DNA from: Bacteroidales bacterium Bact_19
GTDB taxonomy: Bacteria; Bacteroidota; Bacteroidia; Bacteroidales; ML635J-15
Direction of reading: 5' to 3'
Length of the DNA: 43,446 bases
Assembly (NCBI GenBank): GCA_001603595.1
Contig: LUZK01000073.1
Location: forward strand, 1-43,446
A program made the position numbers and the translations under genes. The notes under the pieces are model-generated. The model did not search any database and had not been told where the DNA came from. It saw nothing but the letters and a program-made list of their open reading frames with translations. How positions within the stretch are numbered: position 1 is the stretch's first letter; each line of letters begins with the position of its first letter. Shown here one piece after another: positions 8,942 through 20,390 of the stretch.

Positions 8942-9733
8942 TTATTTAGAATTTAATCTTTTATACATTTCTTGAGCTATAAAACTTGCAACATCATCGG
9001 CATAAGAATTCATTGAAAATCCGGCATCATAACCTAACTCTTTAGCCAATTCGTGGGTGATTCTAGGTCCACCGCAAATTAAGATAACTTTTTTGCGAAT
9101 ACCTTCGGCTTCAAGCATTTCAACCAGCTCTGCCAAGTTTTTGATATGCACATCCTTTTGAGTAACGGTCTGAGAAACGAGCAAAGCATCGGCATTTAAT
9201 TCTATTGCTTTTTTAACAAAATCTTCATTTGGCACCTGAGCTCCCATATTAAGAGTTTCGAACATTTCATAGCGTTCGAGTCCGTAGTGCCCGGCATAGC
9301 CTTTCATATTCATTATAGCATCTATGCCAACCGTATGAGCATCTGTACCAGTACTTGCACCAATAACGACAATTTTTCTGCCTATATTTTGTTTTATAAA
9401 TTCATCACATTCTTTCATGTCCATTTTTACAGAATCAACTTTTGGAACATGAATAGCTGTATAATCAATTGTATGAATACAGGAACCGTAGCAAACAAAG
9501 AAGGTGAAACCATCTGTAAGTCCTTTATAATAAACTACTTGAGGATTTTCAAATCCCATTTTTTTCATAAGTTGTTTAGCAGCTTCTATTGCTTCGTCGT
9601 TACAAGGAACCGGCAAAGTAAAACTTAGTTGGGTTTTACCATCGTTCATTGTATCGCCATAAGGTTTAACTTTTTTAAGGTCGAGAGTTTTATCGAAATC
9701 TTTACTCTCCATTGAATACAATCCGCCGCTCAT
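8942..9733 (-). CDS. kamE: Beta-lysine/D-lysine 5,6-aminomutase, B12-binding beta subunit
   Basis: This 263-residue subunit binds adenosylcobalamin and PLP, and with KamD moves the terminal amino group of beta-lysine to give 3,5-diaminohexanoate. The base-off B12 motif is GTDAHTVG, with cobalt-ligating His133. The PLP lysine is Lys144 in MNMKGYAGHYGLERY. Both numbers equal those of the characterised Clostridium sticklandii enzyme as I recall it. The Rossmann-type domain continues with SQTVTQKD and ILICGGPRI. The N-terminal 100 residues match the family's dimerisation domain. The ATG shares its first base with the kamD stop (TAATG overlap), a sign of tightly coupled, stoichiometric synthesis. 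Confidence 0.95.
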   Translation of the reverse strand: MSGGLYSMESKDFDKTLDLKKVKPYGDTMNDGKTQLSFTLPVPCNDEAIEAAKQLMKKMGFENPQVVYYKGLTDGFTFFVCYGSCIHTIDYTAIHVPKVDSVKMDMKECDEFIKQNIGRKIVVIGASTGTDAHTVGIDAIMNMKGYAGHYGLERYEMFETLNMGAQVPNEDFVKKAIELNADALLVSQTVTQKDVHIKNLAELVEMLEAEGIRKKVILICGGPRITHELAKELGYDAGFSMNSYADDVASFIAQEMYKRLNSK

Positions 9734-11292
9734 TATTTGTTTCCTCCTTTCATTAAATTAATAAATGGGTTGAAATAGTTTTCAGCTTTTTCAACAACAC
9801 CATTGAGTCCTTTTCCTCCGTTTCTAGATCTTTTAGTTTCAGCAAAAAGTCCTTTTTCCAGAGCTGTAAAAAGACCGAGTTTTTCAATTTCTGCCAACAA
9901 ATTTAAGGCATCGTCTAAGACTTTTGCAGCACGTTGTCGGATTATTCCGCCTTCTTTAAATTCAACTTCATTCCCTATATCGTGTAGATTATTGAAAATA
10001 TATTTTGCATTTTCAATTGACAAATACCTGTCGGACATAAATGGAGTATGAATAGCTTCTGTTAGCATTCCCAATAAATGTATACCCTGTCCTGTCCAGA
10101 TTGAAATTTGATTAAAAAGAGCATCCTGAACATGCCCGCGGAAGATATTTCCGGTCATATATTTTGTTGGAGGCATATATTTTAATGGGGCTTTTGGAAA
10201 AATTTCGCGGGTCATTTGAGCCTGAGCTAATTCATAGAGGAATCCGTTTTTCAAATCAGGATCCATTTCAAAAGCATGTCCTAGACCCATTTGTTCTTCG
10301 GGCATTCCGGCTAATAATGCGAGTTGTTCATTGATTAAATCTGAAGCAAGAACTGTATGTGCCTGTTCGAAAGCATCAGCAGTGGTTAAATAATTATCTT
10401 CACCTGTATTAATTATAACGCCGGCGAAGCCATTAATAATTCTGCTAAAATACTGGTCAATAATTGTTCGTTGAGGATTTATATCTCTGAAGAGAATTCC
10501 GTAAAGCGCATCATTTAGCATAACATCAAGCCTTTCAAGTGCACCCATGGCAGCAATTTCGGGCATACATAATCCTGAACAATAATTACATAATCTGATA
10601 TATCGTCCAATTTCCTGCCCGACTTCATCAAGTGCAGATCTCATAATTTTGAAATTTTCCTGAGTGGCATAAGTTCCGCCGAAACCTTCGGTTGTAGCAC
10701 CGTAAGGCACGTAGTCCAGAAGGCTTTGCCCGGTTGTTCTGATAACAGCAATAATATCAGCCCCTTGACGAGCAGCAGCCTGTGCTTGTATTACATCTTC
10801 GTAAATATTTCCGGTAGCAACGATGACATAGAGATATGGTCGAGAACCTTCGCCCAAAGTTTCGAGTAATTCTTTTCTACGTTTTACGTTGTTTTTTATT
10901 CTTTCCACTGTTGCATTGATGTAAGGCATAACAGCCTCTTGAATTTTTTCGATACTATGAAGAGACAATTTGGTTATGTCAAGGTTTGATTTTGCAATTT
11001 CTTCTGCAATTTGCTGAGGTGTTAATCCTGTATTACAAATTGCATTCCCGATAAAATATAATATTCCATGCCCTAAAAGTTTATTGTTATGAACCTGATC
11101 AACAACAACATTCGGCAAAGGAACTTCATTTTCATCAATACCGTCTATACCTATTAACCTGCAAAGTGTTCGCTCTACAGCAACTGTGGAATAATTTTCT
11201 ACAAAATTCTGCACATCTGCAGCAATATTTTCGGCTAATCTTCTGGCCTCATCAACTTTAGCAAAATCCAATCCTAACTTACTTTTCCTCAT
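9733..11292 (-). CDS. kamD: Beta-lysine/D-lysine 5,6-aminomutase, alpha subunit
   Basis: This 519-residue TIM-barrel subunit of the B12/PLP aminomutase catalyses the radical 1,2-amino shift with KamE. The family is clear from segments such as SRPYLYVIVATGNIYEDVI, RTTGQSLLDYVPYGATTEG, LCNYCSGLCMPEIA and GQGIHLLGMLTEAIHTPFMS. Its length is normal for the alpha subunit. It follows kamC by 65 bases and overlaps kamE by one base. The cluster context makes L-beta-lysine from KamA the physiological substrate. Enzymes of this family are known to be prone to self-inactivation, which bears on the kamB and kamC genes just upstream. Confidence 0.95.
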   Translation of the reverse strand: MRKSKLGLDFAKVDEARRLAENIAADVQNFVENYSTVAVERTLCRLIGIDGIDENEVPLPNVVVDQVHNNKLLGHGILYFIGNAICNTGLTPQQIAEEIAKSNLDITKLSLHSIEKIQEAVMPYINATVERIKNNVKRRKELLETLGEGSRPYLYVIVATGNIYEDVIQAQAAARQGADIIAVIRTTGQSLLDYVPYGATTEGFGGTYATQENFKIMRSALDEVGQEIGRYIRLCNYCSGLCMPEIAAMGALERLDVMLNDALYGILFRDINPQRTIIDQYFSRIINGFAGVIINTGEDNYLTTADAFEQAHTVLASDLINEQLALLAGMPEEQMGLGHAFEMDPDLKNGFLYELAQAQMTREIFPKAPLKYMPPTKYMTGNIFRGHVQDALFNQISIWTGQGIHLLGMLTEAIHTPFMSDRYLSIENAKYIFNNLHDIGNEVEFKEGGIIRQRAAKVLDDALNLLAEIEKLGLFTALEKGLFAETKRSRNGGKGLNGVVEKAENYFNPFINLMKGGNK

Positions 11293-11357: not shown

Positions 11358-12746
11358 TCATAATTTACGACTTATAAAATCTCTGGCCGAAAACACTAAT
11401 TCTTTTTCGACACCAAGCATTTCTATAATATTTAAAGCATCGTTGGGAACAAAATTTTCATCAATTTCTACCAATAAATAATCAATATAATCATTTATGT
11501 TAGTTGAATTAACTTCTTGGTTTTTAATTTCATCTGTTTTAAGTCCTTTGACTTTATATCTCTTACTTCGTGTGATTATACCGCTATAATGAGTTGTTAC
11601 AACACAAGACGAATTATATTTTTCCATAAGATATACAAAAGCATTGACAATTGCTTTACCTTCGTCGGGATTAGTTGTTCGTGCAAGTTCGTCAACTAAT
11701 CCAAGAATTTTTTTCCCTTTTTTAGCGGCTTTTATAATTTTATCAACATTAAGCATTTCTGCAGCAAAAGATGATAATCCTGTTAATTCATCCTGGTTAT
11801 CGCCAAGTGACATTATTATTTCTTCAACAGGCATGATCTCAGCTTTTTGTGCCGGAACATAAAATGCAAACTGAAACATTATTTGAGCAACTGCAAGAGT
11901 TTTTAACAAAACAGTTTTTCCTGACATATTTGCACCTGTAATAAGGCAAGGTTTTTGGTCAATTCCAATATCCACTGCCTGAAACTTTTTTCCTTTTTTA
12001 CTTAATATATCAGCAATAAAAGGGTTAAATAATCCGCAATAATTTATTCTATTTTCGACAATTTCCGGTCTGCACAAATTAAACTTTTCGATCAACTGTG
12101 TTTTAGCAAGTAAAACATCAAATTTTGCAACATTCCGCAAATTAATTTCTAAATCTTTACAATAATGTCTTAATTCTTTGCAAAGTTTTGTTCTAATTTG
12201 ATCTTCTAATTTAAGTATCTCTATATAAAGTTCATCTTTTTTATTTTGATTATTCGTGGAAATTCTTTCTTTTCTTAATTTTGCAAGTTTTGAATCGTAG
12301 GAATCATAAATATAAAATGTCATCAACCCCGTATTATCAGGATCCAGGATATTTATAACAATAGACAGATCAGAAAATTCGAGACTAGTATAATTAATTT
12401 CACATAAAATTTCTTTCAATTTCTGAATTAAAACAGAAAATTTTTTTACTTCAAACAATTGAATATCATCAACAGTAAACCCGGATTGGATATTTTTTAT
12501 TATTAACGATACATCATAAACCTGAGACAATAAATGCAGGATATTCGTTTTAGTTATTTCGGATAAGGATGTATATTTTATAAATAATTCATCAAGTAAT
12601 TCCAGTTCATCTTCAATTTGATTGGGAGCAACAATAAATTTGGAGTTTAGGAGTTCTTTTCGACCTGGAGCAGAACAGATATTCATATTATCATAAATAA
12701 ATTTCACTCCAACATGCTCCGCTATGTAATTTCTAAATGTTTTCAC
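11358..12746 (-). CDS. kamC: KamC: MutS-like ATPase of the lysine fermentation cluster
   Basis: This 462-residue protein has the MutS core/clamp-like helical region (residues 50-230) and a MutS-type ABC ATPase domain (about 235-462). Seen motifs: Walker A GANMSGKT (271-278), the trans-acting LTGLSSFAAEM segment (321-331, compare STFMxEM in MutS), Walker B ILGLVDE (347-353) followed by LARTTNPDEG, and the switch His386 in TTHYSG. The mismatch-recognition and connector domains are absent, so DNA repair is unlikely to be its job. Homologues sit in kam clusters of Fusobacterium and Porphyromonas. A role as ATP-driven chaperone or reactivase of KamDE is inference. The gene starts 2 bases after the kamB stop, so the pair is translationally coupled. 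Confidence 0.85.
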   Translation of the reverse strand: MKTFRNYIAEHVGVKFIYDNMNICSAPGRKELLNSKFIVAPNQIEDELELLDELFIKYTSLSEITKTNILHLLSQVYDVSLIIKNIQSGFTVDDIQLFEVKKFSVLIQKLKEILCEINYTSLEFSDLSIVINILDPDNTGLMTFYIYDSYDSKLAKLRKERISTNNQNKKDELYIEILKLEDQIRTKLCKELRHYCKDLEINLRNVAKFDVLLAKTQLIEKFNLCRPEIVENRINYCGLFNPFIADILSKKGKKFQAVDIGIDQKPCLITGANMSGKTVLLKTLAVAQIMFQFAFYVPAQKAEIMPVEEIIMSLGDNQDELTGLSSFAAEMLNVDKIIKAAKKGKKILGLVDELARTTNPDEGKAIVNAFVYLMEKYNSSCVVTTHYSGIITRSKRYKVKGLKTDEIKNQEVNSTNINDYIDYLLVEIDENFVPNDALNIIEMLGVEKELVFSARDFISRKL

Positions 12747-12748
12747 TT

Positions 12749-13756
12749 TTAAATTTTTTTAATATCGTAAATTGGTAATTTTATTTCGTCGTGAAGTTTA
12801 TCTGCAAGCAAATTTGAATCTAACTTATAACCAAATGGAGAAAGTGGATTTATGCAAATTGCTATTAAATTTGGCTTTAACAGTACCCTTATTTCACCTC
12901 CGGATCTTAAAAATCCGTAATATTTTTCTTTTGAAATAAATATTTTTGTAAAATCCTTAACAAGTATTACGATCTTCTTTTTAGTATTTTGAACTCTTAT
13001 CAGTTCTATAAATCTATCTGTCAAGATTCCGCTCAAAAAAATGGCGGAAGCTTTATTAATAAATTCGGGAGAAATTTTGTCTGCAAAAAGCCCTGATTCA
13101 ATACAGGTGTCAATAAGTTCATTGTCTTTTGTAATAATGTATAGTCCCTTTTCTTTTCCCATTAATATTTCGTGATGTTCGGTATCAAAACTTTCAATAT
13201 TTATGAGCTTAACTAAAAAAGCTGTTTTCTTTACAATATCATCTATCCCGGGAGCAACAGCTGCTCCGGTAGTGAGAATCATACTTTCAGTAATGGAAGG
13301 CGATGCTGATGATTTTCTCGACAATGCTCCGTCAACCAGAAACAAGTCAACTCCCATATCTCTTGTTTTATCAATTATTTCTTTCAACCAAACTGTTTGA
13401 GAAGGTCCTGAACAAATTACCTTACCAAAATCTTTGGCACGAGCTGTAATTAAACGTCCCAAAGCAGTAGATTTTTGTGTTATATCAAGAATTTCTGCAG
13501 TTAATTGTTTTTGTTTATAGTGTTTTTCCGAAGTAATAAAAATTGTTCCTGGATAAATTTCGATTTCCGGTTTTGGTGTTTCAGTTACCTGATCTACGCT
13601 CTCCCCATCTATGCCAATGGATGTTAATCCTATTATTTTTTCTTTCTCCTTGAGTCTATAAATTACATAATTTAAACACTCAGTTTTACCTGTATTCTTC
13701 TCCATCCCCACAATGGACAAACTTCTGCTTACTAATATTTTATCAATAAATGGCAA
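12749..13756 (-). CDS. kamB: KamB: P-loop NTPase-like protein of the lysine fermentation cluster
   Basis: This 335-residue protein is known only from lysine fermentation clusters, and its biochemical role is not established to my knowledge. A Walker A-like motif GMEKNTGKT (17-25) follows a first beta strand (LSIVG), and a Walker B-like DLFLVDG (137-143) is followed by ALSRKSSASPS; this arrangement resembles BioD/MobB-type P-loop proteins. The start is a TTG at 13756. An in-frame TGA lies two codons upstream, and the next ATG (codon 18) would remove the strand and first glycine of the P-loop. The TTG is therefore the only start that keeps the domain whole. It is the first gene of the second lysine unit, directly after the transposase gene. 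Confidence 0.8.
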   Translation of the reverse strand: MPFIDKILVSRSLSIVGMEKNTGKTECLNYVIYRLKEKEKIIGLTSIGIDGESVDQVTETPKPEIEIYPGTIFITSEKHYKQKQLTAEILDITQKSTALGRLITARAKDFGKVICSGPSQTVWLKEIIDKTRDMGVDLFLVDGALSRKSSASPSITESMILTTGAAVAPGIDDIVKKTAFLVKLINIESFDTEHHEILMGKEKGLYIITKDNELIDTCIESGLFADKISPEFINKASAIFLSGILTDRFIELIRVQNTKKKIVILVKDFTKIFISKEKYYGFLRSGGEIRVLLKPNLIAICINPLSPFGYKLDSNLLADKLHDEIKLPIYDIKKI

Positions 13757-13824: not shown

Positions 13825-14784
13825 TTAATATAGTATATTATCCTGTGTTATATAATATAATTTTGTCCGCTTCCAACTTCTTTTTATTGGTCTTGAATAT
13901 TTTGCTTCACAATGCAAATCCAAAAACTCTTTGTATGTCTCCTCCATTTGCGTAAAAATTCTCCAAACAAACTTCTGACATAAATACTTAGTTGTCATTG
14001 CATCAAATATTTGCATCTCTTTAGTAATAAAAAAATTATTATACCCCTGCAAATATTTAGTAGATACACCCTTCAGCTCATAGTTGATAAAGTTAACTAT
14101 CTTTGACGATAACTGTTGATAATAACGGACAATTCTATGCTTCAAATATACAGATACATCTTTATGTACAACTTTTTTATCAATTCTATTATTTTTTGTA
14201 AATTTCAAAAATGCATCTTTTTCAGGAATTAATAACTTGCATGATTCCATTATTTTTTTTCTCAATACCCTATCCAAATGTTCTGCATTCAGATTTCCAA
14301 CAGTTGCAATTCTCACAAAGTTTATATTTTGATCTGTTGTATTTAATACTCTGGAGAAATATCTTTTATTTATATCATTCTCTTTTTTACTCAAACCTCT
14401 CCTGCCCTTCTGACTAAACCTAAAACTTATATCACCAACAAAAGCCTCATCTTTAAACAAAATATTCTGCTGTGGAATAGAAGAAAAAATTTTGTGTCTC
14501 CAATCAAATGATGTTAACTTAGCTATATTAAAACGTTTCGACATCTTCATAACAGAAGATAATCCTTCTTTCTTCAAAACTTCAGCATATTCAATAAATA
14601 ATTCCTTTTTGTGAATATAATGAATTGAAGTCCCACTACTTGGCAAAAATGTACGTTTACAATCTTTACATTTATACCTATGAGTAAATTTGTATTTACC
14701 ATGCTTTTTGAATTTCGTACTATTGCAGTACGGACAATTTGTTACCAAGAGGTTTTCTTTATAAAGTTTAATCAGTTTTTCCAT
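13825..14784 (-). mobile_element. IS1595/ISXO2-like transposase gene between kamA and kamB
   Basis: The 319-residue product has an N-terminal zinc ribbon (CPYC at 17-20, CKDC at 38-41), a helix-turn-helix-like region to FDWRHK, a likely first catalytic Asp in FKDEAFVGD, a possible second in EKDAF, and the C-terminal GVSTKYLQGY that IS1595-type transposases carry. The NxYHSRLK-like motif expected 15-20 residues before GVSTKYL reads YYQQLSSK, so the third catalytic position looks altered and the enzyme may be inactive. No convincing terminal inverted repeats or target duplication were seen in the flanks (13757-13824 and 14785-14854), so element ends are not defined and the coordinates cover the gene only. 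A broken relative lies at 1-535. Confidence 0.75.
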
Positions 14785-14889: not shown

Positions 14890-16131
14890 TTATTTATTCT
14901 TATGTCTTTTCTTTCTCGACAATCCTTCCGGTTCTAACGACATATGACTCCCGTTTAATAATGCGGCAACTCCTTCTACTCCTTTCTTACATTCATCACA
15001 ATTGCAGTTATCAACATAATCAGTTGGTTCTGTATAAGTGGTTATTACTCCTTCAAAGTTCCTTAATACAATCCGTCCGGGACTTTGTGAAATTATGTAA
15101 GTCGGCATCACCGGAGTCTTTCCTCCTCCCCCGGGAGCATCAACTACAAATGTAGGAACAGCATATCCCGAAGTGTGTCCTCTTAAATTTTCTATAATCT
15201 CTATACCTTTTGATACTGGTGTTCTGAAATGCTCCAATCCCATAGAAAGATCACATTGATAGATATAATATGGTCTTACTCTTATTTTCACAAGATCGTG
15301 TACAAGTTTCTTCATTACATGAACACAATCATTTACACCTCTTAATAATACAGATTGATTTCCTAAAGGAACACCGGCATTGGCAAGTTTTGCACATGCT
15401 TCAGCTGCCTCAGGTGTTACCTCTTTTGAATGATTAAAATGTGTATTCAACCAAATTGGATGATATTTTTTCAACATGTTTACAAGGTCATCTGTGATAC
15501 GTTGAGGACAAACTACAGGTGTACGTGTTCCGATTCTTATTATTTCAACGTGAGGAATTTCACGCAATCTTTTAATTATTGATTCTAGCATTTTATCCGA
15601 GACCATCAATGCATCACCGCCCGAAAGGAGAACATCTCTTACTTGAGGCGTATTCGCAATATAATCTATTGCTTTTTGAATTCTTTCGCTTGGTGATTCT
15701 CTATCCGTTTGACCGGCAAATCTTCTTCGAGTACAATGTCTGCAATACATGGAACACATGTCTGTTATTAAAAACAGAACTCTGTCGGGGTAACGATGTG
15801 TTAATCCGGGGACGGGAGAATCTTCGTCTTCGTGCAACGGGTCAAGTAAATCAGCTGCCGAAATATGTGTTTCAGCTCCTGTTGGAATAGCTTGTTTTCT
15901 GATAGGACAATTTTTGTCTTCAGGATCTATTAAACTAAGATAGTATGGAGTAATTGCCATTCTTAAGGTTTGCAATGATTTGATTACTCCTTCTTCTTCT
16001 TCAGGAGATAATTTAATATACTTTTTAAGTTCTTCTAAAGTTTCTATCCTATTTTTTACTTGCCATTTCCAATCATTCCATTGTTCGTCAGGAACATTCG
16101 GAAACATTTTTTTTCTTCCTTCACTCATCAT
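14890..16131 (-). CDS. kamA: L-lysine 2,3-aminomutase (radical SAM, PLP)
   Basis: The product converts L-lysine to L-beta-lysine, the entry step of the pathway. The radical SAM cluster motif is C126SMYC130RHC133. The PLP lysine is Lys338 in [11 protein letters not shown]. Asp294 (YQCD) and Asp331 (VVDAP) are the two acidic residues that hold the substrate's epsilon-amino group and separate true lysine 2,3-aminomutases from the EF-P enzyme EpmB and from glutamate mutases. C-terminal CNCDEC together with C269 forms the structural zinc site. The protein begins MM; starting at the second Met makes every number equal the Clostridium subterminale enzyme as I recall it. It is the last gene of the first unit, 11 bases after kdd copy 2. 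Confidence 0.96.
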
Positions 16132-16142
16132 TTTTCAGAATT

Positions 16143-17177
16143 TTAAACGTAAATTTTTTCAAATAAAGCTCTTATTTCAGGAGACTCTCTTAAAATATCG
16201 AGTGTTAATTGTGCGTGGCCTTTTGCATAACCATTACCAACAATCAGATTTATGTCTTTTCCAACACCTTCTGCTCCCAGTGCTGCTTTAGTAAACGATG
16301 TTGCCATTGAAAAAAAATAAATTATTCCCTGTCCCTTTGCTATAAGAATTGAAGTCATTTCGGTATTGGGAACATTCACATTATTTATAACAACATCACA
16401 TCCTCTCGGACCGGTAATTTCAATAACTTTGTTATAAACTTCCATTACTTTGGTTGCATCTGCAACAACTACATGGTGTGCAAGTTTCATATCAACGATT
16501 CTCTTTGCATTTTCCGGAGAATATTCAACCACAATTACTTCTCCATAAGGGCCAACATTCTTCATCGCCTGATAGCAGCAAAGAATTCCGGATTTTCCAC
16601 CGCCTCCGATTATGCAAACGGTATCACCTTCTTTTACCAGTCTGTCAACCTGAGCAGGTGCACCTGCCACATCAAGAGCTGCTAATGCAAGTTTTTCGGG
16701 AATATCATCAGGAAGCACGGCATAAATTCCGCTTTCAAATAATATAGCTTCGGCTTTGACATCAACTTGATCAATATGCGGATCAAGTTTTAAAATTTCA
16801 TAAATCTTCAATGGAGTCAAAGATAATGAAACTAATGTAGCTATTTTATCACCTACCATAAGTTTTTTATCAGGAAAATTAGAACCAATTTCTTTAACCA
16901 CACCAATTAACATTCCTCCGGAACCGGTAACGGGATTTTGCATTTTTCCTCTTTCATCCACAATTGAAAGTATCATTTCTTTCATTTTATCAGCATCATG
17001 ACCGCAAGCTTGCCTTATTTGTGTGTAGCTGGCAGAGTCAATATTTAAAGTCCTTACATCAATAAGTATTTCATTATCATAAATACTCATTGTATTATCC
17101 AATTTATATGCCGGTTGCGGCAATGTTCCTTCCGGTTCAATCACTCTGTGAGTACCAAATCTGCATCCTTTCTTCAT
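16143..17177 (-). CDS. kdd: 3,5-diaminohexanoate dehydrogenase, copy 2
   Basis: This 344-residue MDR-fold oxidoreductase oxidises L-erythro-3,5-diaminohexanoate to 5-amino-3-oxohexanoate. It shares most of its length with the neighbouring copy (for example HRVIEPEG, NPVTGSGGML, ALDVAGAPAQ, FSMATSFTKAALGAEGVG). The Rossmann loop is GGGGKSG (191-197), and the second strand ends VIVVEYS with Glu218 where an NAD-preferring enzyme carries an acid. It is 66 bases after copy 1 and 11 bases before kamA. Which copy carries the main flux cannot be told from sequence. Confidence 0.88.
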   Translation of the reverse strand: MKKGCRFGTHRVIEPEGTLPQPAYKLDNTMSIYDNEILIDVRTLNIDSASYTQIRQACGHDADKMKEMILSIVDERGKMQNPVTGSGGMLIGVVKEIGSNFPDKKLMVGDKIATLVSLSLTPLKIYEILKLDPHIDQVDVKAEAILFESGIYAVLPDDIPEKLALAALDVAGAPAQVDRLVKEGDTVCIIGGGGKSGILCCYQAMKNVGPYGEVIVVEYSPENAKRIVDMKLAHHVVVADATKVMEVYNKVIEITGPRGCDVVINNVNVPNTEMTSILIAKGQGIIYFFSMATSFTKAALGAEGVGKDINLIVGNGYAKGHAQLTLDILRESPEIRALFEKIYV

Positions 17178-17243: not shown

Positions 17244-18287
17244 TTATGCATAAAGTTCTGTAAATACTTTTCTTAATTTTTCACATTCTCTAAGAATTTG
17301 GAGAGTTATTTCTGCATGACCTTTGGTATATCCATTTCCAACAATCATTGTTACATCACTCCCAACACCTTCTGCTCCTAATGCTGCTTTTGTAAAAGAT
17401 GTAGCCATGGAAAAGAAATAAACAAGACCTGTATCTTTTGTGCAAAGAATACTTGTCATTTCAGTATCAGGGATATTTACATTATTTATTGTGATGTCGG
17501 CCATTTTGCCTCCAGTTAGTTCTTCAATTTTTTCCATAATTGGAACAGGTTGTGTTGCATCTGCAGCAAATACATAGTCACAAAAACCTAATTCCATCAA
17601 TCTTTTGGTACTCTTTTCACTATGAGTTAATCCAATAACTTTTCCGGTTACGCCTGCACGTTTTTTTGCTTCATAACAACAAAGCATTCCTGATTTACCT
17701 CCTGCTCCTATAATGAAAACAGTATCTCCGGGTTTTACTAATTTAGCGGTTTGAGCTGGTGCACCTGCAACATCAAGAGCTGCTAAAACCAATCCTTCAG
17801 GCATATCATCAGGTATTTTGGCATAAATTCCGCTTTCAAACAAAATAGCTTTGCCTTCAATATCAACTTGGTCAATTTCACTTCTGATTTCTTTTATTTT
17901 GTCAATTCTTAATGGTGTTAATGATAATGAAACAAGTGTTGCAATTTTATCTCCTTCTTTCAAATCAATTTTTCCTTTTAGAGCATCTCCAATCTTTTCT
18001 ACTGTACCCAAAAGCATTCCTCCAGAACCTGTTACCGGATTACGATGCTTACCTTGTTTTGCAACAATATCAAGCATTATTTCGGCAATCTTAGCTTTAT
18101 CGCCTCCGGCTTGTTCCTCGATCTGTGTAAAACTTGCCGAATCAATATTTAATGTTTTTACATCAATGAGAATTTCATTATCATAAATCTCATCCATGTT
18201 ATTATCTATCTTATTTGCAGGTTGAGGAAGTACTCCTTTGGGTTCAATTACTCTGTGTAATCCGTATTTATTTCCTTTCTTTTGCAT
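17244..18287 (-). CDS. kdd: 3,5-diaminohexanoate dehydrogenase, copy 1
   Basis: This 347-residue paralogue of the next gene has the same family signatures: HRVIEPKG, NPVTGSGGMLLG, LFESGIYAKIPDD, ALDVAGAPAQ and FFSMATSFTKAALGAEGVG. The Rossmann loop is GAGGKSG (194-200). The second strand ends VIGLTHSEKSTK, with Thr-His-Ser in place of the acidic residue of copy 2 and basic residues nearby, which could favour NADP. It starts 21 bases after kce. The tandem arrangement points to a local duplication followed by divergence, since the copies differ throughout and not only in one block. Confidence 0.88.
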   Translation of the reverse strand: MQKKGNKYGLHRVIEPKGVLPQPANKIDNNMDEIYDNEILIDVKTLNIDSASFTQIEEQAGGDKAKIAEIMLDIVAKQGKHRNPVTGSGGMLLGTVEKIGDALKGKIDLKEGDKIATLVSLSLTPLRIDKIKEIRSEIDQVDIEGKAILFESGIYAKIPDDMPEGLVLAALDVAGAPAQTAKLVKPGDTVFIIGAGGKSGMLCCYEAKKRAGVTGKVIGLTHSEKSTKRLMELGFCDYVFAADATQPVPIMEKIEELTGGKMADITINNVNIPDTEMTSILCTKDTGLVYFFSMATSFTKAALGAEGVGSDVTMIVGNGYTKGHAEITLQILRECEKLRKVFTELYA

Positions 18288-18308: not shown

Positions 18309-19133
18309 TTATTTTTTCTTTAAACCTAAAATTTCACGTGCTTCATTTGGTGTTGCAATTTCGCGACCCAGCTCTTTTGCCATTCTCACTACCTTTTCTA
18401 CTAATTCACCATTGGATTTTGCAAGAACACCCTTCGAAATAAAGACATTATCTTCCAAGCCAACCCTAACATGACCACCATCAATTATTGCTGCCATTGC
18501 TAAAGGGAATTCAAACCTTCCTATTCCTGCTACTGTATAAGTAGCATTTGCTGGAATACTATGTCTTAGAAAAACAAAATCTCTTAACGAACCTCCTATA
18601 CCTCCCTGAACTCCCATAACAAAATCAAAATGCATAGGATCCTTAATAATTCCTTTTTTGTGCAATCTCAAAGCAGTATCAACCATTGATTTATCAAAAA
18701 CTTCAATCTCGGGTTTTACTCCGAGTACATTCATTTTTTCGGCAAAATAAATGATTGTTTTTTCTGTATTTACAAATATATCAACAGGACCAAAATTTAA
18801 CGTTCCACAATCGAGAGTTGCCATTTCGGGAGTTAAATCAAGTGGTTGAAGTCTTTCATCATCAGTCATTCCTACAGCTCCTCCTGTTGAAGGCTGAATA
18901 ATTACATCCGGAATTTCTGCATATATTGCATCCATTACTTCTTTAAATCTGTTTTTATCCTGAGTCGGAGTACCATCGTCCCATCTTACATGCAAATGAA
19001 TTATACTTGCTCCGGCATTGTATGCTGCCTTGGCTTCGCGAACAAATTCTTCTACTTTATAAGGTACGGCAGGATTATGTTCCTTGAGAACTTCTGCTCC
19101 GCAAATTGCTGCTGTAATTATAAGTTTATCCAT
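18309..19133 (-). CDS. kce: 3-keto-5-aminohexanoate cleavage enzyme
   Basis: This 274-residue member of the BKACE (DUF849) family condenses 5-amino-3-oxohexanoate with acetyl-CoA to give acetoacetate and 3-aminobutyryl-CoA. The zinc-binding N-terminal motif is IIHLHVRWDDG, with the family's paired histidines. IQPSTGG and GGHVRVGLEDN (phosphate/metal and catalytic loops) are present in order. The length is typical. It sits between the aminotransferase and the first kdd, with gaps of 12 and 21 bases. The kam context, rather than sequence alone, makes Kce the right member of this substrate-diverse family. Confidence 0.93.
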   Translation of the reverse strand: MDKLIITAAICGAEVLKEHNPAVPYKVEEFVREAKAAYNAGASIIHLHVRWDDGTPTQDKNRFKEVMDAIYAEIPDVIIQPSTGGAVGMTDDERLQPLDLTPEMATLDCGTLNFGPVDIFVNTEKTIIYFAEKMNVLGVKPEIEVFDKSMVDTALRLHKKGIIKDPMHFDFVMGVQGGIGGSLRDFVFLRHSIPANATYTVAGIGRFEFPLAMAAIIDGGHVRVGLEDNVFISKGVLAKSNGELVEKVVRMAKELGREIATPNEAREILGLKKK

Positions 19134-19145
19134 AGTTTTTATTTT

Positions 19146-20390
19146 TTAGATATATTTTTTCAATTCACCAAAAGCTTCAGCTATCATATTTGCTGTGTAG
19201 TCTAGATCCTCATCGGTATGACGATATGCAATATAACCATGATGATATGGTTGCAAGAATACTTTTCTGCGTATAAGTTCTGTATAGAATGCAGGACGAA
19301 GTTTCTTGTATAATTGATCTTTATCTCTGTTAAAAGTTATAAATGGCATGAAAGGAGCTCCGGAAAACTCTGCATCATAACCCGAATTTTTAACAATTTC
19401 CTTAACCTTTGCTGCAAATCTATTCCCTTTTTCTGCAATAACATCTAAAACTTTATCTCTTTCAAGAATCTCTATAGTTTTTAATGCAGCTATTTGTTCC
19501 AGACTGTTCGGGAAAAATGTTGATGATAAAAATACTTTGTCGGCTAAAACCTTCATATATTTTTCTTTTCCGACAACCACACTAATTGGATAACCATTTG
19601 CAATAGCTTTTCCAAATACTGATATATCAGGAGTAACTCCAAATACTTTTTGTGCTCCGCCAAGGCTAAATCTAAAACCACTGCGTATTTCATCAAAAAT
19701 AAGAACTGTTCCGTATTTATCTGCTAATGCCCTCACACCTTCGAGATAGCCGGGTTTGGGCATTTGAACCTTTTCTGCAAGTGGATGACCTACCGGGGTA
19801 ATTATAATTGCAGCCATGTCATCCCCATGTTTTTTCATTACATCTTCGAGCTCGTCTAAATCATTGTAATGTACTTCGTGAACATCTTCATATAGTTTTT
19901 GAGGTATGCCGCCTTTTACTTCCACACACCAATCATGCCATCCATGATATCCGCATCTTACAACTTTTGTTCTGTCGGTAGCACCTCTTGCTACTCTAAT
20001 TGCTGTTGAAGTTGCATCAGAACCTGTTTTTACAAATACAACCATTTCGGCAGATGGAATTAATTCTATTAATTTTGCTGCCAAACGGTTTTGCACTGGC
20101 TGAACCAATGAAAAACAAAATCCTTTATTTTTCATTTGTTCTATGACGGCACTGTCTATTTCTTCTTCACGATGTCCTATGATAATTGGACCGTAAGCAC
20201 ATAAATAATCAAGATACTCATTCCCGTCAACATCATATACTTTACCGCCTTTAGCATTATCAAAAAAAATAGGATATTCGCCAGGAACAAAATTATACGG
20301 CCGTCTAATGCCTGCTACTGCTCCCGGAATCATTTTCAGAGCTTCGTTATAATACTTCTCCGATAATTCTAATTTTAATTTTTCTGCCAT
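19146..20390 (-). CDS. kat: Class III aminotransferase, probable 3-aminobutyryl-CoA (acyl-CoA beta) transaminase
   Basis: This 414-residue fold-type I PLP enzyme resembles glutamate-1-semialdehyde aminomutase. KTGSDATSTAIRVARG (121-136) binds PLP phosphate, Asp233 lies in IFDEIRSG, and the Schiff-base Lys261 in FGKAIANGYP. It stands where other lysine fermentation clusters carry kal (3-aminobutyryl-CoA ammonia lyase), and no kal-like gene is present. An acyl-CoA beta-transaminase (Kat) that turns 3-aminobutyryl-CoA plus 2-oxoglutarate into acetoacetyl-CoA has been described from a Cloacamonas kam cluster lacking kal. The assignment here rests on family and context; a true GSA aminomutase is unlikely next to kce. 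It is 10 bases after the CoA-transferase gene. Confidence 0.78.
   Translation of the reverse strand: MAEKLKLELSEKYYNEALKMIPGAVAGIRRPYNFVPGEYPIFFDNAKGGKVYDVDGNEYLDYLCAYGPIIIGHREEEIDSAVIEQMKNKGFCFSLVQPVQNRLAAKLIELIPSAEMVVFVKTGSDATSTAIRVARGATDRTKVVRCGYHGWHDWCVEVKGGIPQKLYEDVHEVHYNDLDELEDVMKKHGDDMAAIIITPVGHPLAEKVQMPKPGYLEGVRALADKYGTVLIFDEIRSGFRFSLGGAQKVFGVTPDISVFGKAIANGYPISVVVGKEKYMKVLADKVFLSSTFFPNSLEQIAALKTIEILERDKVLDVIAEKGNRFAAKVKEIVKNSGYDAEFSGAPFMPFITFNRDKDQLYKKLRPAFYTELIRRKVFLQPYHHGYIAYRHTDEDLDYTANMIAEAFGELKKYI

Follow-up and report, generated by a model that had tools for sequence, protein, structure and literature searches.

The window analysed here, the 43,446-nucleotide contig LUZK01000073.1 of Bacteroidales bacterium Bact_19, carries on its minus strand the genes of two proteins, KamB and KamC, directly ahead of those of the B12-dependent lysine 5,6-aminomutase KamDE. 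The 335-residue KamB (12749..13756, TTG start), a predicted SIMIBI P-loop nucleoside triphosphatase (NTPase), and the 462-residue KamC (11358..12746, GTG start), an ATPase core that resembles MutS2 but has no DNA-binding domains, are followed by their presumed client, which consists of the alpha subunit KamD (9733..11292; NCBIfam NF052384, 929.7 bits, cut-off 600) and the B12-binding beta subunit KamE (8942..9733; NF052385, 417.9 bits, cut-off 280), the latter also matching Pfam B12-binding and OAM_dimer. The stop codon of kamB (12749-12751) and the GTG start of kamC (12744-12746) lie 2 bases apart, and the coordinates agree with the initial annotation of this DNA, which had placed kamC 2 bases from kamB and the pair ahead of kamD-kamE. 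KamB (348.6 bits to NF052386, cut-off 210) and KamC (423 bits to NF052383, cut-off 300) score well above the curated cut-offs, show no sequence difference from these families, and are real, ordinary members of them. NCBIfam titles the families "lysine 5,6-aminomutase reactivase", ATPase KamC and subunit KamB; because both proteins exceed the cut-offs of families so named, their reading as a reactivase is existing annotation, and the system is less undescribed than was claimed when it was called poorly described. We found no experimental test of KamB or KamC among the open-licence PMC papers that our searches listed.

KamB and KamC accompany KamD in nearly all genomes that encode it. A KamD scan returned 443 relatives, the best 80 of which were kept, yielding a set biased to the window's kind that comprises, by record title, Bacteroidales, clostridial and Thermotogota sequences and one Propionigenium. 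Within 10 kb of KamD, both KamB and KamC were encoded at 44 loci, KamC alone at 2 and neither at 34 (15 of which had less than 4 kb of upstream DNA). Wherever both were near KamD they were adjacent and on the same strand, and at 43 of these 44 loci their open reading frames (ORFs; starts set mechanically) overlapped or had at most 9 bases between them. Whole-genome searches of the remaining 36 genomes recovered KamB in 33 (31 over the cut-off) and KamC over the cut-off in 32, the other four holding KamC-type fragments, three of which reached the contig start; the KamC copies counted in genomes G353 and G361 carry several in-frame stops and one, respectively. In total, all 80 KamD genomes contained KamC, four of them only as fragments, while 77 contained KamB, and the genes were often far apart. 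Mere operon hitchhiking by KamB and KamC was rejected because their presence is kept where the genes are unlinked. Two apparent fusions were also rejected: a TAA stands between kamD and kamE in frames of about 800 residues, and a 655-residue KamB-KamC frame resolves into two genes in different frames.

In the most stringent test of the association, 199 genomes from the order of Clostridium sp. Cult1 (G383, locus L109) were searched with KamB and KamD. KamB was found over the cut-off in 92 and as a fragment in one more, and KamD over the cut-off in 90 and as fragments in three; both occurred in 91 genomes, KamB only in 2, KamD only in 2 and neither in 104 (kinship among the genomes inflates the significance of this pattern). 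Under strict cut-offs the corresponding figures were 87, 5, 3 and 104, and the genes lay no more than 6 kb apart in 83 of the 87 and on separate contigs in 4. In each of the four discordant genomes the gene sits on a short contig of 4.7-7.8 kb, which ends inside kamC (two), at kamD (one) or just past kamB (one). Thirteen genomes gave only an ornithine-mutase-strength match to the KamD model (frames of 696-749 residues in the seven shown), and because 11 of these were without KamB and the other two (G448 and G533) are cut contigs, KamB tracks the lysine enzyme and not its ornithine cousin. KamB was absent from all 14 control genomes, which included Bacillus subtilis and Methanosarcina acetivorans. 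Our survey of the window's own family covered 31 genomes, 26 from the same genus and five from other genera. In the same-genus genomes, KamD was found in 25 (24 over the cut-off), KamC over the cut-off in 25 and KamB in 24, with all three in 22 and G007, G013, G018 and G024 as the exceptions; four of the five other-genus genomes had none of the three over the cut-off. One family member, G022, has KamD, KamC and KamB on three contigs, with kamC apart from the other kam genes. Among 296 sampled genomes of the window's phylum, KamD exceeded the cut-off in the window's own genome only. These counts, from the order and the 80 KamD genomes alike, support the partnership with KamDE that had been proposed, and a dedicated link of KamB and KamC to KamDE, with co-occurrence outlasting the loss of linkage, is strongly supported.

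KamC contains all of the MutS-type ATPase motifs originally read in it: a Walker A (GANMSGKT, from G271), an SSFAAEM segment (S325, E330), the Walker B residues D352 and E353, and the switch histidine H386. Across 30 aligned KamC proteins, length-selected from the 44 loci having both KamB and KamC plus the window, residues G271, K277, S325, E330, D352, E353 and H386 are invariant, as are L97, E99, K101 and D135, and every one matches NF052383 at E 0.01. With Pfam MutS_V, Walker A and B, signature and switch histidine in 30 of 30, KamC belongs at the fold level to the MutS superfamily of ATPases; MutS_III was matched in seven. None of the 30 matched Pfam MutS_I, MutS_II, MutS_IV, Smr or the MSSS-type domain of MutS2, while the same scan returned domains I-V for the MutS1 of the window's own genome, and V, Smr and a sub-cut-off MSSS for its MutS2. 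With that MutS1 as control, the reported lack of a mismatch-recognition domain is upheld. The "clamp-like helical region" that had also been described is not: the stretch between the KamC-invariant residues R158 and E181 spans 20-37 residues in the 30 proteins versus about 87 in the own-genome MutS1 and MutS2 (in which the anchors were read off the alignment), and it holds no domain IV, which Pfam places in the matching stretch of MutS1. Because domains I, II, IV and Smr are absent and the clamp-position stretch is short, the DNA-handling parts, clamp included, are gone from KamC, which fits the use of a MutS fold outside DNA repair. The nearest relatives beyond the KamC family are MutS2 (best PDB and NCBIfam match) and MutS; KamC shares its ATPase core motifs with MutS2 proteins such as that of Bacillus subtilis but is without their Smr, MSSS and clamp-position insertion. 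Membership of KamB and KamC in a defence system was rejected, as KamC gave weak ATPase-motif matches only (best E 6.5e-6) and KamB none. In G022, kamC and a gene of mutS2 type are separated by about 3 kb (locus L138, 2230-4698 and 7985-9370).

The assignment of KamB to a BioD-like type of P-loop protein likewise held. Its Walker A motif reads GMEKNTGKT from G17, and K20, G23, K24 and T25 are invariant in 40 of 40 aligned KamB, as is D142-G143; all 40 match NF052386 at E 0.01. The predicted structure (predicted local distance difference test score, 88.5) has a SIMIBI fold, for which BioD and the signal recognition particle (SRP) GTPases share the top rank, and on this model KamB is a SIMIBI P-loop NTPase of the same class as BioD, SRP and MeaB. 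MeaB/MMAA and the IcmF G-domain, as described in a portion of PMC9974510, likewise join a SIMIBI-class P-loop fold to a B12 mutase client, as we presume KamB to do. No sequence-family match of KamB to MeaB/MMAA was seen; about half of KamB falls outside the aligned SIMIBI core, and it has a MutS-fold partner. At two loci (L108, 3087-4205; L128, 3087-4229) KamB has a C-terminal tail extension ending in the His/Cys-rich SHCCGNEE.

The homologous ornithine aminomutase, which also uses B12 and pyridoxal phosphate (PLP), usually stands beside a different protein. Of 44 genomes searched for OraE, 28 had it over the cut-off, and 13 ornithine loci of 10-20 kb each were examined (12 of the 28 OraE regions plus a further one, in G186). 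Adjoining oraE is a GlmL-type protein in 9 of the 12 regions and in G186, two of these ten being confirmed as Or-4; GlmL/Or-4 is thus an accessory protein beside its mutase at 10 of 13 loci, as KamB and KamC are beside KamDE. The two belong to different protein families, however: no GlmL-type ORF was present at any of the 80 KamD loci, no KamB- or KamC-like ORF (E up to 10) was present at any of the 13 loci of the ornithine mutase, and neither KamB nor KamC matched a GlmL model of NCBIfam at E 0.01. We had expected the ornithine mutase to have a MutS-like partner as well; this was rejected, as none occurred in these 13 regions. The three other regions are all from Thermotogota; L211 and L218 have no GlmL-type gene by oraE, and the contig of L217 ends just past oraE. 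The genomes of all three carry KamB and KamC, and sharing of the helper is conceivable.

On the minus strand of the window, the cluster runs in the order HemL-like aminotransferase, kce, two kdd copies, kamA, a transposase-like ORF, kamB, kamC, kamD and kamE, followed by a 3-oxoacid CoA-transferase subunit gene and a thiolase gene. The same pathway is represented by kamA, for lysine 2,3-aminomutase (14890..16131; TIGR03820, 628.6 bits, cut-off 525.4), by kce (18309..19133; NF052387, 440 bits, cut-off 382), and by two adjacent copies of kdd, for 3,5-diaminohexanoate dehydrogenase (17244..18287, 279.7 bits; 16143..17177, 275.4 bits), both above the NF052381 cut-off of 200; a single kdd copy is usual. 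The class III aminotransferase gene (19146..20390) scores below the HemL cut-offs and, from the context given in PMC3149608, is probably kat (3-aminobutyryl-CoA aminotransferase). The cluster is a lysine-fermentation variant in which this HemL-like aminotransferase (Kat) stands in place of kal, a variant that PMC3149608, in the part consulted, records from a Bacteroidetes contig and from 'Candidatus Cloacamonas', and whose figure legend there already lists a 'mutS' gene and hypothetical proteins. The cluster is interrupted between kamA and kamB by the transposase-like ORF (13825..14784), which has an IS1595/IS1-type zinc domain, matches NF050000 over and NF033547 below the cut-off, and lies outside the system. 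It has 48 matches in its own genome (itself and fragments counted), and the close relative L056 is collinear with the window through this ORF, at 91% over 14 kb. Neither the window nor L056, L109 or L137 had an Rfam match that exceeded the gathering score. Lysine riboswitches occur at L117 (3613-3791) and L124 (3536-3717), on the same strand as kamB and some kilobases upstream of it.

We consider it probable, with moderate confidence, that KamB and KamC form a dedicated two-NTPase helper of KamDE that opens the enzyme and exchanges damaged cobalamin; the basis in sequence is the intact NTPase sites, the 2-base spacing and the retention of the pair in nearly all KamDE genomes. The sections of PMC3958899 on which we draw report that KamDE inactivates itself by electron transfer, giving cob(III)alamin. 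In the mechanism that we propose, turnover would oxidise the enzyme's own cobalamin and leave it dead, KamC would spend ATP to pry open the enzyme or pull apart the KamD barrel and the B12 domain of KamE, and KamB would sense the B12 domain and gate the exit of damaged cobalamin and the entry of fresh adenosylcobalamin (AdoCbl). The division into a KamC motor and a KamB gate is a guess, and the reverse may hold. Excerpts of PMC9974510 indicate how a SIMIBI NTPase, MeaB, might keep a B12 mutase open to its cofactor, and a section of PMC10897456 presents MutS2 as a MutS-type ATPase that can split a large non-DNA complex; combining the two actions on the B12 domain of KamE is our own inference. 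The specific job of loading, repairing or exchanging cobalamin, which matches the NCBIfam names, is plausible by analogy, and the named function is made more likely, short of being shown, by co-occurrence with KamDE, by the stripped-down MutS core of KamC, by the SIMIBI fold assigned to KamB and by the GlmL contrast. A more tentative proposal, less likely than not, is that a KamC MutS-fold motor together with KamB constitutes a mechanical two-NTPase reactivase unlike known types, which may be part of the old ATP-linked activation of lysine mutase.

Several observations weigh against a dedicated reactivase. The initial annotation had asked whether KamB and KamC always accompany KamDE, and they do so in nearly all cases but not in every one. 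G024, with a listed completeness of 100% and about 10 contigs, has KamD and KamC and no KamB match, an exception that may therefore be genuine. G007 (91% complete) has KamD and KamB with no KamC over the cut-off, G018 (80%) has no KamB match, G013 (88%) and the other-genus G030 (87%) have KamB and KamC with no KamD match, and a KamB match is absent from three of the 36 KamD genomes searched in full. From the biochemistry, passages of PMC3958899 state that recombinant KamDE is active alone and is not regulated by ATP, that OraS restored ATP regulation to it, that its native partner E2 had AdoCbl synthetase activity (which in our view would also suit an adenosyltransferase), and that ornithine mutase, near which we found no KamB or KamC, inactivates itself 10-fold more slowly.

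Those recombinant data bear also on whether KamB and KamC instead mature KamDE, through first AdoCbl loading or PLP assembly, and not through repair after inactivation. Co-occurrence fits maturation equally, the SIMIBI fold of KamB is compatible with it, and MeaB, according to part of PMC9974510, assists both the first delivery of the cofactor and the removal of cobalamin that is damaged; however, since KamDE expressed without KamB and KamC was active (PMC3958899, in the sections cited), loading is not strictly dependent on them, and we regard maturation as possible and rather unlikely. Another route would be for the pair to supply cofactor or to regulate, for example as E2 itself in the role of an AdoCbl-making or allosteric partner. 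As portrayed in the same sections of PMC3958899, E2 was about 80 kDa, made ATP activating, transferred label from ATP and had the synthetase activity noted above, and the computed masses of KamB (37.4 kDa) and KamC (52.9 kDa) sum to about 90 kDa, near E2. Neither KamB nor KamC matched an adenosyltransferase family, however, and we consider a cofactor-supplying or regulatory role improbable. The size of E2 is equally consistent with a trimeric adenosyltransferase of the PduO type. Because an adenosyltransferase also fits the activity of E2 and OraS restores ATP control, the identity of E2 with KamB plus KamC is itself doubtful, well short of an even chance.

Two further readings would detach the pair from KamDE. 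KamC might act on nucleic acids or ribosomes as MutS and MutS2, its nearest outside relatives, do, and lie in the cluster by chance or through co-regulation; but a DNA or ribosome function was rejected on the absence of mismatch, connector, clamp and Smr domains, the window's own genome has two other genes with a MutS_V domain, one of the MutS1 and one of the MutS2 type, and KamC is kept with KamD even where unlinked, all of which makes such a role very improbable. Service to KamA would accord with the position of kamB directly 3' of kamA in G022 (L139) and with the window, in which only the IS-type ORF intervenes. Yet KamB tracks KamD and is missing from the control genomes of B. subtilis and M. 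acetivorans, which presumably carry lysine 2,3-aminomutase genes, and KamA is a most unlikely client.

A KamB-KamC reactivase would have a functional parallel in diol dehydratase reactivase, which exchanges damaged cobalamin for AdoCbl in an ATP-driven manner, although neither KamB nor KamC matched a family of that kind. As part of PMC12429584 relates, suicide inactivation of KamDE is incompletely understood and hinders its use as a biocatalyst; if KamB and KamC revive KamDE, adding them could yield a lasting one. Such a role, if true, would bear on the long-standing ATP effect and would be a case of a MutS-type machine acting on a metabolic enzyme, and, set against the ornithine mutase with its GlmL neighbour, it would show related B12 mutases recruiting unrelated helpers.
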